Of a DNA stretch of 64,000 nucleotides, positions 71 through 6,791 are shown piece by piece (positions within the stretch are counted from its first letter, which is position 1; each line of letters starts with the position of its first letter). The notes beneath the pieces were generated by a model. It was not told where the DNA came from. It ran no database searches and saw only the letters and a list, made by a program, of their open reading frames with translations. Source of the DNA: Acetobacter estunensis. Its GTDB lineage: Bacteria; Pseudomonadota; Alphaproteobacteria; Acetobacterales; Acetobacteraceae. The position numbers and the translations under genes were made by a program. The stretch spans positions 1-64,000 of the forward strand of contig NZ_WOTH01000005.1 of the NCBI RefSeq assembly GCF_011516945.1. The letters run 5' to 3'.

Positions 71-109
71 CCCTACAATATGGGAAGAAATTCAAGATCT
101 AACAGGCCC
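1..109 (-). mobile_element. Partial IS5-family insertion sequence (cut by window edge)
   Basis: The minus strand shows the end of an insertion sequence: a terminal sequence beginning GGGCCTGTTAGATC at 109 and reading leftwards, then a transposase start at 70. The terminus resembles the GAGCCTGTT end of the complete IS5-type element at 1358-2240. The adjacent TAG at 110-112 would fit the TNA target duplication of this family, but the other end is outside the window, so the boundary is inferred. Confidence 0.55.
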
Positions 110-232
110 TAGAACGTGTTTAGGTGGTATTTTTTTCCACCCAGACACTGTGCTGTGCGAAAGACCGATTGCTTTGGCCACTACTACGCAGCCTCCCGCC
201 CGGCGAACTATCTCTCGTGTGTCCATGCATTA

Positions 233-287
233 AATGTCGGACATTCCAACATTATTGTCAAACGGAAATGTCGGCACAACCGGCACA
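233..287. promoter_or_regulatory. Operator pair 1 (upstream of XRE regulator)
   Basis: Two 21-bp sites start 34 bp apart. Site A at 233-253 is AATGTCGG-n5-CCAACATT. Site B at 267-287 keeps the AATGTCGG half and a weaker CCGGCACA half. Site A matches the reverse complement of 2281-2301 at 19 of 21 positions. Lying 34-88 bp before the regulator start at 321, they look like autoregulatory operators. This is inference from the repeats; no binding data are available. Confidence 0.6.
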
Positions 288-320
288 CGCAGAGAAACCG
301 CCTGCCATGATGGCGACGCT

Positions 321-674
321 ATGACAGATACCACATTAGGGAACAGATTGAGAACACTGCGCAAAGAGCGTAGGATCACTCAATCAGAGGTCGCGTCAGC
401 GGTGGGGGTTTCAAGATCTCATCTCGCTACCATTGAACGGGGGCTCGACAATCCAGGGCGGGAGACCCTAATGGCGTTGGCTGACTTCTATGGAGTATCT
501 ATGGACTGGCTGGCCGCCACACCAGGGCGAGCAGTCTCGTCGGTAGATATTAGGGCTCAAACACATGAAGAGGCTCTGCTCTTGTCGGCCTTTCGCAAAT
601 TGCCGAAAGACGAAGCTGAGCCTCTTCTTAGAATGCTTATCAGCAGATCAAAATCTGCCGACAAGTCATCGTGA
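321..674 (+). CDS. XRE-family helix-turn-helix regulator of the integrated element
   Basis: This 117-residue protein has a Cro/CI-type helix-turn-helix in its first 65 residues (LGNRLRTLRKERRITQSEVA, then GVSRSHLATIERG), the typical XRE pattern. The C-terminal part is a short helical tail, so there is no peptidase or ligand domain. An earlier in-frame start exists, but ATG 321 puts the helix-turn-helix at the N-terminus and leaves the operator pair at 233-287 outside the gene. The stop codon directly abuts the convergent lipoprotein gene at 675. By position and by the second operator pair at 2247-2301, it probably represses both itself and the operon that starts near 2323. Confidence 0.85.
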   Translation: MTDTTLGNRLRTLRKERRITQSEVASAVGVSRSHLATIERGLDNPGRETLMALADFYGVSMDWLAATPGRAVSSVDIRAQTHEEALLLSAFRKLPKDEAEPLLRMLISRSKSADKSS

Positions 675-1280
675 TCAATGTAAGATATTGGAATTAATGA
701 CTTTGTAGACGAAGTCAGTGCCGAGGCGGCGAATGGCTTTGTCGCCAGCCAAGTGGATTGCGGTTTCTGCATTGAAGCACCCACCGTCGGCGCTTTCTGT
801 GCCTTCACCGTAAATCATCGCACGTGCCGCTGGCGTTCCTTGGGCGTCTCTCACATCCACGCGGCCAGTTATTTCGACATGAGCTTCTACTCTACTCGAA
901 AACATCCGAGGTATCACGGAAATGCGGGCAGAAATGTCTTCCGCGTCAATTCGCATGTTGTAAGGGGCTGTCATTACTTCGCCATCGTGAGTTTCTGTTG
1001 CTTTAGCAAATCCCGCAGAAATCGCAGCATCCAAGGTTTCTTTGATTCCCGGTCCAATGCTTAATTTATATGTATGCGCCGCGCATGAAGCGCTTTCCGG
1101 CTCTATTGACTTGCTCGCGTTTGTTAAATCTTGGGTATATGAATACTGCGTCGGAGTCTGAATAATTCTATTTGGCATTACTTCTGACGCAGATGCTCCG
1201 GTTCCCGACAGTGTTATCGAGTGTGAGCAGGCACTCAGCATTACCATGCTACCTAAAGCGAATACGATATTGAGTCTCAT
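675..1280 (-). CDS. Putative lipoprotein of the integrated element
   Basis: About 201 residues from ATG 1280, beginning MRLNIVFALGSMVMLSACSH: a short signal peptide with an LSAC lipobox, so the mature protein should be lipidated on the Cys. An in-frame ATG at 1313 would add an 11-residue leader that fits a signal peptide less well. I do not recognise the rest; it has mixed alpha/beta composition with two Cys (ESASCAAHTY and DGGCFN) and no clear domain. It converges on the XRE gene with no gap. The IS5 element is inserted 44 bp upstream of ATG 1313, so its native promoter has probably been displaced. Confidence 0.65.
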   Translation of the reverse strand: MRLNIVFALGSMVMLSACSHSITLSGTGASASEVMPNRIIQTPTQYSYTQDLTNASKSIEPESASCAAHTYKLSIGPGIKETLDAAISAGFAKATETHDGEVMTAPYNMRIDAEDISARISVIPRMFSSRVEAHVEITGRVDVRDAQGTPAARAMIYGEGTESADGGCFNAETAIHLAGDKAIRRLGTDFVYKVINSNILH

Positions 1281-1357
1281 TTGTTTGTCCCACATAAATT
1301 TCACCGGTCCCATACATGGAATTTTCCTAATAAGAAGTCGTAAAAATGCATTTCTAA

Positions 1358-2240
1358 GAGCCTGTTTGGAAAATCGGTCTGATGTGATTCAAGCTCTGGA
1401 TGTGGACGCCAGAGCAGAGGGGCCGGATGGCCAGGATCACCCGCAAGACGAAACGCTACCCGTCTGACATGACGGACGAGGAATGGGAGCGGATCGCGCC
1501 ATTGATGCCAGGCCCAGGGCGTCGTGGCCGCCCACGGGAGGTCGAATTCCGTGAGGTGATTAACGCGGTGCGCTATCTTGTTCGTTCAGGCTGCGGTTGG
1601 CGCATGCTGCCGATCCACTTCGGGCACTGGCGCACGGTCTATGGCTGGTTCCGGGAACTGGCGCGACGGTTCCTGTTCCAGACCATCCATGACGTTGAAC
1701 TGATGCTCGACCGGGAGCAGGCAGGCCGCGAGGCCAGTCCGACAGCGGCGGTGATCGACAGCCAGAGCATCAAGGCGCCTCATGCAAAGACAAGAGGTTA
1801 CGATGCCGGCAAGAAAGTCGTCGGACGCAAGCGCCATATTGCCGTCGATACGGACGGGCGCCTCCTGATGGTCAATCTGACCCCGGCCGATATCTCCGAC
1901 AGTGCCGGCGCCCAGATGATCCTGGATGCGATCCGCAAGCGTTGGCCATGGGTGAAGCATCTGTTCGCCGATGGCGCCTATGACCGCCTGAAGTTGATGG
2001 ACAAGGCGACTTATCTGGATTTCATCGTCGAGATCATCCGCCGCCGCGACGCAGCAAAGGGTTTCGAGTTACTGCCGCGACGTTGGGTGGTCGAGAGGAC
2101 TTTCGGCTGGATGACCCGCTGGCGGCGGCTCGTACGTGATTATGAGCATCGTGTCGACGTGTCACAGGCCATGATCTTCGTCGCCATCGGCGCCAATCTC
2201 ATGCGCAGAAATGCACACCCGTGATTTTCCAAACAGGCTC
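1358..2240 (+). mobile_element. Complete IS5-family insertion sequence with TAA target duplication
   Basis: The element is 883 bp and bounded by perfect 18-bp terminal inverted repeats, GAGCCTGTTTGGAAAATC at 1358-1375 and its reverse complement at 2223-2240. TAA flanks it on both sides (1355-1357 and 2241-2243), the 3-bp TNA duplication typical of several IS5 subgroups. The single transposase fills it. Intact ends, matching duplications and an open transposase point to a recent insertion. It lies between the lipoprotein gene start and operator pair 2. Confidence 0.92.
1427..2224 (+). CDS. IS5-family DDE transposase
   Basis: The 265-residue transposase has the N-terminal YPSDMTDEEWERIAPLMPG block of IS5-group enzymes. 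It also has a complete DDE triad: D in AVIDSQSIK, D in LFADGAYD, and E in VVERTFGW, followed by the basic RWRRL segment. It catalyses cut-and-paste movement of the surrounding element. ATG 1427 was preferred over ATG 1400 because AGAGGGG sits just before it. The stop lies inside the right inverted repeat. There is no frameshift, so the enzyme should be active. Confidence 0.9.
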   Translation: MARITRKTKRYPSDMTDEEWERIAPLMPGPGRRGRPREVEFREVINAVRYLVRSGCGWRMLPIHFGHWRTVYGWFRELARRFLFQTIHDVELMLDREQAGREASPTAAVIDSQSIKAPHAKTRGYDAGKKVVGRKRHIAVDTDGRLLMVNLTPADISDSAGAQMILDAIRKRWPWVKHLFADGAYDRLKLMDKATYLDFIVEIIRRRDAAKGFELLPRRWVVERTFGWMTRWRRLVRDYEHRVDVSQAMIFVAIGANLMRRNAHP

Positions 2241-2246
2241 TAACCT

Positions 2247-2301
2247 GATGTCGGAAAGCCCGACGTTTTTTGTTGACGAAAATGTTGGGATATCCGACAT
2301 T
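2247..2301. promoter_or_regulatory. Operator pair 2 (upstream of the element operon)
   Basis: Site C at 2247-2267 reads GATGTCGG-n5-CCGACGTT and site D at 2281-2301 reads AATGTTGG-n5-CCGACATT; their starts are exactly 34 bp apart, the same spacing as pair 1. Site D is the inverted near-copy of site A. The XRE regulator encoded at 321 is the obvious candidate to bind all four. Site D overlaps the likely -10 region of the operon promoter, which fits repression. Confidence 0.6.
2273..2301 (+). promoter_or_regulatory. Candidate sigma-70 promoter of the element operon
   Basis: TTGACG at 2273-2278 is a good -35 hexamer. Seventeen bases later GACATT (2296-2301) could serve as a weak -10. The -35 lies between operator sites C and D, and the -10 is inside site D. 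The first candidate genes begin at 2323 and 2411. The assignment rests on spacing only. Confidence 0.4.
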
Positions 2302-4351: not shown

Positions 4352-4696
4352 ATGCCGCGCTACCATCTCTCGCTGACGCCGATCGACAACGGCCTTTACA
4401 GCGCAATGCTCATGGACACGGCCATGAGATGGCCGATTGGCTTCCGCACTTGTCGCCGCACGCGCATTGAGGGACGAGCCGCCATCGTCGGATCCAGCAC
4501 GGACGGGTTGCCGGGTTGGGAACTGACAGTTCGGCCGACATCTGACGGAATGTTCCAGGCCGATGCAACTGACGGCCGCGACTGGGAAATCCGGTTCCCG
4601 GAATGCGTTCTGGAGCAGGATGGCGCCGGCAAGCGGATCGATGGATGGGCTGAAGAGGCCGAGATAATCGAAGAGAAGAAAGGAGAAGCGGCGTGA
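4352..4696 (+). CDS. Unknown small protein of the element operon
   Basis: A 114-residue soluble protein (MPRYHLSLTPIDNGLYSAML and on) with an acidic C-terminus, WAEEAEIIEEKKGEAA. It begins two bases after the stop of the membrane protein gene, and its TGA overlaps the GTG of the AlpA gene (GTGA at 4693-4696). No domain is recognised. Confidence 0.6.
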   Translation: MPRYHLSLTPIDNGLYSAMLMDTAMRWPIGFRTCRRTRIEGRAAIVGSSTDGLPGWELTVRPTSDGMFQADATDGRDWEIRFPECVLEQDGAGKRIDGWAEEAEIIEEKKGEAA

Positions 4697-4905
4697 TTGA
4701 TCACATGCTCACTCGGCGCGAAGTGGAAAGCCGGATCGGCCTGAGCCGGAGTTCCATCTATCAGCGCCTTAAAGACGGATCATTCCCCCAGCCGGTGCGG
4801 TATGGAAGCCGCACCGTGCGCTGGAAAGAGAGCCAGATCGCTGCATGGCTCAAGGAACAGGAGGATAAATACCTTCGTAAGAACTGTAATCTAGTCGACC
4901 CATAA
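4693..4905 (+). CDS. AlpA-family excisionase-like DNA-binding protein
   Basis: The 70-residue protein is a MerR-like winged helix of the AlpA type: LTRREVESRIGLSRSSIYQR then DGSFPQPVRYGSRTVRWKES and IAAWLKEQ, the full family pattern. AlpA proteins act as recombination directionality factors or activators in P4-like elements and sit near the integrase, as here. GTG 4693 overlaps the previous stop; ATG 4705 is an alternative. It is the last gene of the operon and converges on the AT-rich orphan gene. Confidence 0.88.
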   Translation: MIDHMLTRREVESRIGLSRSSIYQRLKDGSFPQPVRYGSRTVRWKESQIAAWLKEQEDKYLRKNCNLVDP

Positions 4906-4914
4906 AGGGATTGA

Positions 4915-4955
4915 GATGATAGGAGCTACTAAAAAAGTCGATAGTTCCTATCATC
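4915..4955. repeat. 10-bp inverted repeat at the AlpA / AT-rich gene boundary
   Basis: GATGATAGGA at 4915-4924 is repeated inverted as TCCTATCATC at 4946-4955, with a loop containing a run of A (T on the minus strand). It lies between two convergent genes and overlaps the last codons of the AT-rich gene. It may act as a terminator for one or both, or mark the edge of the AT-rich segment. Confidence 0.5.
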
Positions 4956-5516
4956 TGTGCCAGTTTTTTTGACTGGAGCCGATACTTCGTCGAGGATTCG
5001 AAGCCAGTCATCATAAACACTAAGAAGCAGATTGTTTATTTCAGTTATATCTAGGAAATCATTTCCTTCATAAATATGCTCTTCGAGATAAAATCCCTTC
5101 TTTTTGCTCCCAAGTATATTTATAATGCACGGAAGAACACTATCTAAGTCAGGATCTTGACTTAGTACAAATGCCTTTTGGATGCTGAAAACAATCTTTC
5201 TGGTTATGCTGCTGTCGATTCCTGACTGGGACCGAAAGTCAAGAAAGAGAGAAAACGCAACTCCACTTTTAATGCCAATTCTATCATGCCAAAATTTTAT
5301 GTTTTTATCATCTGGAAGCGTTGGCCCGAAAGGCATAGGAAATTCTCTAAATAAAACATTATTTTTTCTTATATAATCAAAAAGAATCCTTCCCTTTATT
5401 ATATTAAATTGCTGAGCTCTTTCAGGGTCTTTTTGTTTCTGACAATCTCTACGAATTTTCTTTTCGATGTTTTCCCATGGAACATCAGGCAAAAGTAAAC
5501 CTAGCTCATTCTTCAC
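4929..5516 (-). CDS. AT-rich orphan protein translated from the integrase stop
   Basis: The 195-residue protein starts at GTG 5516, two bases after the integrase TAA (5519-5521), so it probably relies on coupling, as no Shine-Dalgarno motif is seen. It is soluble, rich in Lys, Asn, Ile and Phe, with no signal peptide or membrane helix. I recognise no family. GC content is clearly far below the neighbours (roughly one third by eye), which indicates recent foreign origin. Its place next to the integrase is a common position for cargo such as defence genes, but nothing in the sequence proves such a role. Confidence 0.65.
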   Translation of the reverse strand: MKNELGLLLPDVPWENIEKKIRRDCQKQKDPERAQQFNIIKGRILFDYIRKNNVLFREFPMPFGPTLPDDKNIKFWHDRIGIKSGVAFSLFLDFRSQSGIDSSITRKIVFSIQKAFVLSQDPDLDSVLPCIINILGSKKKGFYLEEHIYEGNDFLDITEINNLLLSVYDDWLRILDEVSAPVKKTGTDDRNYRLF

Positions 5517-5518
5517 AT

Positions 5519-6541
5519 TTAAAATGTAGCGCGAAAGCCATGAGGCACATGGCGACCATGATACCCGGCTCGGTTGAGCAGATATCCGATTGCATTTTCA
5601 CACAGAGGGACACGCGGACGGCGGCTGTTCGGAAAGAGGTGTGGCCAGCGATCTGAAAACGGGCGAAGGGCCTCAATGACCTCGACAGCAGCCGGCGCCA
5701 GAGGAACGACATGTTCGCGATCCATCTTCATGCGTTCGGCAACGATCACCCAGATAGGCTCCGATCCTGAAAGATCGTGAAACTCGTCCCAACGAGCACC
5801 TCGAACTTCACCTGGGCGCACGGCCGTCAGGTAAAGCAGTCGCATTGCCAGCAGAGTGACGGGATGGGCCGCCATATCTTCGGTCTTCCGGATCATTTCG
5901 CGCGCTTCATCCAGATCAGTGATCGCGGGCTGCCGCCCACGCTTCACCGGTCGCAGTGCCGGCTTCACGACAGCAGCCGGATCGGAATCCGCTCGATCAG
6001 TTGCGATGGCATGCACGAAGATTTCGCTGATGCGCTGCCTGATCCTATGGGCTGTCTCGATCGCTCCACGGTCTTCGACGTGCCTCAGGACATGCAGGAC
6101 AGTGCGAGGCGTGATCTGTGAGGGCGGAAGCTTCCCAATCAGCGGAAAGACATCACGCTCAAGACTGGTGATGACATCATGGGCATGGCGCGGCCGCCAT
6201 AGATCTCGGCGCTGGCCATACCATTCCCGCGCGATAGCTTCGAACACCTCTTCATGGGCTGGGCGCAGTAGCGCAGGAGCGATCTTTTTGTGCGCCACGG
6301 GATCAATACCTTGGCGCTTGATATCCTTGGCTGCATCGCGGGCGCGCCTAGCATCCTGCAGCGACATTGCAGGGTAGGGGGCAAGAGTAAGTGTTTGCTC
6401 TTTGCCTTCAGGAGAGCGGTAACGCATTCGCCAGATCTTGCTTCCAGACGCCATGACGTGGAGAAAAAGACCACCGCTATCTGCCAGACGGTAGGCTTTC
6501 TCGGCGGGTTTGGCCGTCCGGATCTTCGTATCTGTCAGCAT
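5519..6541 (-). pseudogene. P4-type tyrosine integrase, truncated before the catalytic Tyr
   Basis: The 340-residue frame opens with the DUF4102 arm-binding domain of P4-like integrases (MLTDTKIRTAKPAEKAYRLA) and continues through the core-binding domain into the catalytic domain. Arg242 (TAVRPGEVRG), a Lys near 270 and His334-x-x-Arg337 (HGFR) are present. The protein then ends ATF-stop, so the later His/Trp and the Tyr nucleophile, normally about 50-70 residues further on, are missing. Family members are usually near 400 residues. The enzyme should not be able to cleave DNA. The AT-rich gene at 4929-5516 occupies the place of the lost 3' end. The tRNA-Ser target lies 160 bp upstream. Confidence 0.85.
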
Positions 6542-6701: not shown

Positions 6702-6791
6702 TGGCGGATGGGGTGGGATTCGAACCCACGGTACGGTTACCCGCACGCCAGTTTTCAAGACTGGAGCCTTCAACCGCTCGGCCACCCATCC
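6702..6791 (-). tRNA. tRNA-Ser (anticodon UGA)
   Basis: The minus strand from 6791 reads GGATGGGTGGCCGAGCGGTT and folds as a class II tRNA: acceptor GGATGGG pairs with CCCATCC, the anticodon stem CCAGT/ACTGG encloses a loop with TGA, a long variable arm follows, and GGTTCGAATCC forms the T arm. The CCA end is encoded. It is the likely integration target of the element to its left, since tyrosine integrases commonly use the 3' half of Ser tRNAs. Confidence 0.95.

Follow-up and report, generated by a model that had tools for sequence, protein, structure and literature searches.

Gene content of the element

The window, meaning here the whole stretch of 64,000 nucleotides of Acetobacter estunensis DNA that was analysed, begins at a contig end, and the features discussed below are listed in Table 1. 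The XRE protein gave only HTH matches in Pfam and PHROG, with no match to an S24 self-cleavage domain; a C-terminal S24 domain is a trait of lambda itself and is not required for a lambda-type immunity region. The product of the divergent gene, which begins with MDTREIVRRAGGCVVVAKAIGLSHSTVSGWKKIPPKH, matched P22_Cro (E = 5e-6) and YdaS (E = 9e-5), both below the Pfam cut-off because the gene is truncated. Another transposase start (MEEGDRTGTFTDETWAIWEPLIE) was seen at positions 1-71 of the minus strand, at the contig end, where a repeated IS has probably broken the assembly.

Table 1. Features of the element, with positions in the window. Operator and promoter names follow the predicted immunity region.
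Feature	Position	Strand	Remarks
Divergent cro gene	92..226	-	44 aa remain; 3' part cut off by the start of a transposase near the contig end
Predicted PR promoter	233..261	-	-35 TTGACA (256-261), 17-bp spacer, -10 GACATT (233-238)
Putative OR1 operator	234..252	-	ATGTTGGAATGTCCGACAT; within the -35/-10 spacer of predicted PR; one of two exact matches in the genome
Putative OR2 operator	268..286	-	34 bp from OR1; distal half degenerate, likewise in relatives
XRE repressor (cI-like)	321..674	+	117 aa; N-terminal HTH
Lipoprotein-like gene	675..1313	-	slot between cI and OL
IS5-family insertion	1358..2240	+	TAA direct repeats at 1355-1357 and 2241-2243; ends 7 bases before OL2
Putative OL2 operator	2248..2266	+	34 bp upstream of OL1
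Predicted PL promoter	2273..2301	+	-35 TTGACG (2273-2278), 17-bp spacer, -10 GACATT (2296-2301)
Putative OL1 operator	2282..2300	+	within the -35/-10 spacer of predicted PL; exact match
Stem-loop	2305..2326	+	predicted 5' end of the PL transcript; overlaps the ribosome-binding region
AlpA-type regulator/excisionase	4693..4905	+	PL operon; Phage_AlpA 2.3e-15, PHROG excisionase
Tyrosine integrase	5519..6541	-	340 aa; C-terminus truncated; profile match stops at 136/172
tRNA-Ser(TGA)	6702..6791	-	presumed attachment site; compare phiAP1 integration in the tRNA-Ser 3' end

The lipoprotein-like gene had no Pfam or PHROG match, and its homologues in four genomes did not adjoin a repressor of this XRE family. 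For the IS5-family element, the five best plasmid matches, from Gluconobacter, Novacetimonas and Komagataeibacter, were 93-96% identical. Beyond OL there follow small genes without family matches, the AlpA-type gene, the truncated integrase and the tRNA-Ser gene. The integrase was 70.6% identical over 340 aa to that of Acetobacter phage phiAP1 (LC644972), whose protein runs on to residue 412; with the Pfam match also broken off early, the region in which the catalytic tyrosine would be expected is absent. An ORF of 195 aa without a family match (4929-5516, minus strand) abuts the truncated gene, and may mark the deletion or insertion that took the integrase C-terminus. When a second copy of the tRNA-Ser end was sought as attL, only three other tRNA-Ser genes came up, so that the left end was not located, and no right arm was found on this contig. 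As both integrase and cro are truncated and a right arm is absent from the contig, the gene content points to an element that is very probably a defective phiAP1-like remnant at tRNA-Ser. The OL pair and PL are intact, and in such a remnant the switch could have no targets beyond the PL genes and the remaining part of cro.

Paired palindromes and the predicted promoters

Four palindromes resembling ATGTYGG-n5-CCRACAT start at positions 234, 268, 2248 and 2282, with 0, 2, 1 and 0 mismatches respectively, the second half of the 268 site being poor (CCGGCAC). The original prediction had placed each one nucleotide earlier; its 34-bp spacing is exact from start to start in both pairs, and the inverted agreement that it reported between the outer sites holds, the 21-mer at 234 (reverse complement) and that at 2282 being identical at 19 of 21 positions, because each is the promoter-proximal site read toward its own promoter. 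The divergent cro gene, the IS5-family insertion between the pairs and the promoter elements had no place in that prediction.

Sites with up to two mismatches numbered five in the 64-kb window, four of them inside these 2.07 kb, while a Markov model led to an expectation of 1.0 site per 64 kb. Two pairs at exactly 34 bp were observed, compared with none in 60 simulated 64-kb windows. The whole 3.45-Mb genome held 92 places with up to two mismatches, from which about 0.055 sites would be expected in 2.07 kb (Poisson probability of four or more, ~4e-7). Exact copies of the motif are not scattered over the 3.45-Mb genome, where only the sites at 234 and 2282 match in full.

Both outer palindromes fall within predicted promoters. 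The OR side, read toward cro, carries TTGACA-17-GACATT with OR1 in the spacer, and the OL side, read toward the operon, carries TTGACG-17-GACATT with OL1 in the spacer; OR2 and OL2 lie directly upstream of the -35 boxes, so that in PR and PL alike a TTGAC sits between the two sites. The -10 boxes (GACATT) match the consensus poorly, which counts against reading the locus as an immunity region. The cro start lies 6 bases past the -10 box in the window and about 5 to 8 bases past it in the relatives, so the cro transcript would be nearly leaderless.

Nearly all the PL leaders start with a sequence like CCATCAC-n-GTGATGGAG, which can be folded as a hairpin at the predicted 5' end, and this was also seen in L038, L043, L061-L063, phiAP1 (L178) and viral contigs. 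When the leaders were folded individually, the z-scores taken against mononucleotide shuffles ranged from -1.1 to -6.7, and the minimum-energy structure of L047 folded differently. A role in translation control or in transcript stability would be a first guess for this hairpin.

Related elements and a search by promoter grammar

The XRE repressor family was found at E = 1e-15 or better in 11 of 147 related genomes, our own included, and larger regions were examined at twelve relative loci, giving 13 elements together with the window. A divergent cro-like gene lies upstream of the repressor in all of them (13/13), as a longer ORF in the 12 relatives, and several of the intact relatives encode cro proteins that exceed the Pfam YdaS cut-off. 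The OR sites are spaced by 34 bp in eight elements, 35 bp in four (L040, L044, L047 and L048) and 33 bp in L049, the repressor of which is longer than the 117 aa of the window. OL pairs spaced by 34 or 35 bp were found in nine elements (the window and 8 of the 12 relatives), and the failure of the scan to find them in L039, L040, L044 and L049 was counted against the immunity reading, as was the weak distal half of OR2 in the window and most relatives. A strict palindrome scan missed the pairs, since OR2 and some of the OL2 sites are degenerate. A TTGAC lies between the sites at most PR promoters and at all nine PL promoters, the PR exceptions being TTGAT (L039) and TTGC (L041, L042, L045 and L046). 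Measured from the centre of OR2, the nearest start codon for cI is 41-45 bp away in 12 of the 13 elements (44 bp in the window); the exception, also counted against the reading, is L038, where the sole candidate start is 70 bp away. Clusters of two operators each, not three as in lambda, were found in the window and its relatives; three operators per cluster are a trait of lambda itself, not a requirement for a lambda-type immunity region.

The inner letters of the half sites vary between the elements, and OR and OL agree within each element. The inner triplets of OR and OL matched at 2.61 of 3 positions within elements compared with 1.53 between elements (P = 2.5e-5 in an exhaustive permutation test on 8 representatives picked to reduce near-duplicates). 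Varied operator letters on a constant geometry offer a natural experiment in changing repressor specificity, and immunity groups may become readable from sequence.

In L048, the arm beyond cro carries replication and RusA-like genes, and the arm beyond OL a YqaJ exonuclease and an integrase. Between cI and OL, a slot with variable cargo was seen in the window and in L038, L041, L042, L045, L046 and L048, in a position like that of rex in lambda; its contents were lipoprotein-like genes in the window and L048, an M78 peptidase of the IrrE/ImmA type in L042 and, by eye, a RhuM-like protein in L045. The M78 peptidase, at 10043-10534 of L042 (oriented), has as its neighbour a short repressor that lacks a self-cleavage domain, and may there bring about an ImmA-like derepression.

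The promoter arrangement was also searched for without reference to any protein, as ACAT-n5/6-TTGAC-n3/6-ATGT-n11-ACAT. This grammar had 14 matches, spread over 10 of the 397 family genomes, and none among the controls, and all of the matched family loci encode an XRE repressor of this family. Five of the ten genomes, our own included, were already known through the protein, and five were newly found. In four genomes the repressor stands between two divergent promoters at a distance of 0.8-0.9 kb, which is the lambda arrangement. A class sample added one further match (L068), without a repressor match, plus one control match. The pattern scan of viral contigs, with a recognised repressor near only 27 of 84 promoters, was not used as proof. 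The search for the XRE protein in named genomes returned only distant HTH proteins, without the motif, and a plasmid DNA search using the cI/OR region gave no match.

The predicted immunity switch and known systems

The sites are very likely operators, OR (234, 268) and OL (2248, 2282), in a prophage immunity region of the lambda type, as judged from sequence comparison. An HTH repressor gene faces a divergent cro-like gene, repeated operators lie between cI and cro and overlap PR, and a second cluster of the same sequence (OL1/OL2) stands at an early operon beyond cI; as for the arms, the window has alpA, and L048 has YqaJ, int, replication and RusA-like genes, the right arm of the window being missing. 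The switch is of a known kind, here in a new member. Dimers of the 117-aa XRE protein would bind OR1 and OL1, inside the -35/-10 spacers, and shut both promoters: PR, expected to be read leftward in the window into cro and the right arm, and PL, expected to be read rightward into the early operon that includes alpA. This repression would be strengthened by further, presumably cooperative, binding 34 bp away at OR2 and OL2. The repressor would probably also activate its own, possibly leaderless, transcript, given that the centre of OR2 is placed with respect to the cI start in a way that is near the geometry of lambda PRM.

The original prediction of a phage-like switch run by the XRE protein as repressor is thereby supported at the level of sequence and made more specific, the layout recurring beside this repressor family in related prophages. 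The exact sites are rare, so one of the refuting conditions set with that prediction, a motif abundant across the genome, did not come true. Its suggestion that the switch may control mobility holds in part: the OL operon does contain an AlpA/excisionase-like gene, but int lies on the opposite strand and is truncated here. This orientation of the integrase relative to the PL operon, unlike that of lambda, was also counted against the immunity reading, as was the sub-threshold Pfam match of the truncated cro.

A plasmid- or ICE-type regulator resembling ImmR, with autoregulatory sites that control conjugation or cargo instead of phage immunity, would agree with the matches of the XRE HTH domain to the structures of ICEBs1 ImmR and DdrO, and with the M78 peptidase near the repressor of L042. 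We consider it very unlikely, as it is at odds with the divergent cro in all relatives, with the phage replication, RusA and exonuclease genes in the arms of L048, with a nearest phage integrase that is the one of the infectious phiAP1, and with the genes examined, among which no conjugation gene was seen. Also very unlikely is a toxin-repressor module of the RacR/YdaS type, in which the divergent gene would be a toxin and the sites would merely silence it: the divergent protein family bears the Pfam name YdaS_toxin and RacR represses ydaS via sites in the shared intergenic region (PMC5700373), yet Jobling argues that YdaS is a Cro (PMC5917428), the copy in the window is truncated, and the second operator pair at the distant early operon would be left unexplained. 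Chance palindromes in GC-rich DNA, for which the loose matches across the genome might speak, have a negligible probability given the clustering of four sites and the two 34-bp pairs, never seen in the simulations, and are refuted by the comparative data, the layout being conserved in relatives.

The lambda-type immunity region remains the preferred reading. One of the closest known systems is phiAP1, described as a temperate phage that mitomycin C induces, that can infect a cured strain and whose integration site is the tRNA-Ser 3' end (PMC8566455). The phiAP1 paper points to CI-like repressors, and no mention of operators was found in its text (PMC8566455). In phiAP1, OL has two copies of TTCGCA-n3-TGCGAA at a distance of 34 bp, on either side of a TTGAC; OR pairs a strong site with a weak one at the same distance, again around TTGAC, and a further site lies close to the start of cI. 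That start is annotated at 6367, but cI may begin instead at an in-frame ATG at 6337, which would be 43 bp away from the centre of OR2 and so agree with the window family. An operator-like site was also seen at 6347-6361. A comparison of the window, whose right arm is off the contig, with the initial 16 kb of phiAP1 gave matches for int and alpA and weak ones for HTH proteins, and no more. The two share a related integrase, attachment at tRNA-Ser, an int gene opposite the early operon, divergent cI and cro genes, the 34-bp OL spacing, TTGAC between the sites and a similar PL leader hairpin, whereas phiAP1 differs in its operator (TTCGCA-n3-TGCGAA), in the additional site near the cI start and in being an active phage. 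The unrelated operator sequence implies a different immunity; the geometry is kept while the operator sequence differs.

More tentatively, the prophages of acetic acid bacteria could share a fixed promoter-operator chassis (34/35-bp pairs flanking TTGAC, cro and cI transcripts with almost no leader, and a hairpin at the 5' end of the PL transcript) on which operators are swapped freely, as in phiAP1, and in which the hairpin acts as a regulatory RNA element, for instance in antitermination or translation control of the early operon. For prophages of these industrially used bacteria, the analysis provides a predicted immunity switch, operators included.

In lambda, the operators are spaced by about 24, each cluster has three, and OR2 lies about 42 bp from the cI start, a distance similar to that in the window. 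Shared with lambda are also the position of cI between two operator clusters, the divergent cro, the operator inside the promoter and the second cluster at the early operon across cI; the window differs in having two clear operators per cluster, a 34/35-bp spacing, a short repressor without a self-cleavage domain and, in this copy, an int gene opposite the PL operon. RacR/YdaS/YdaT of the Rac prophage similarly places a short XRE repressor divergent from a YdaS/Cro-family gene with intergenic repeats, although three such repeats were reported there and their motif is GCCTAA/TTAGGC (PMC5700373). In the immB region of the telomere phage PY54, leaderless cI and cro mRNAs were measured by RACE (PMC4488713), a likeness to the leaderless transcripts predicted for the window, whereas its Cro binds a single operator and its prophage is a linear plasmid.
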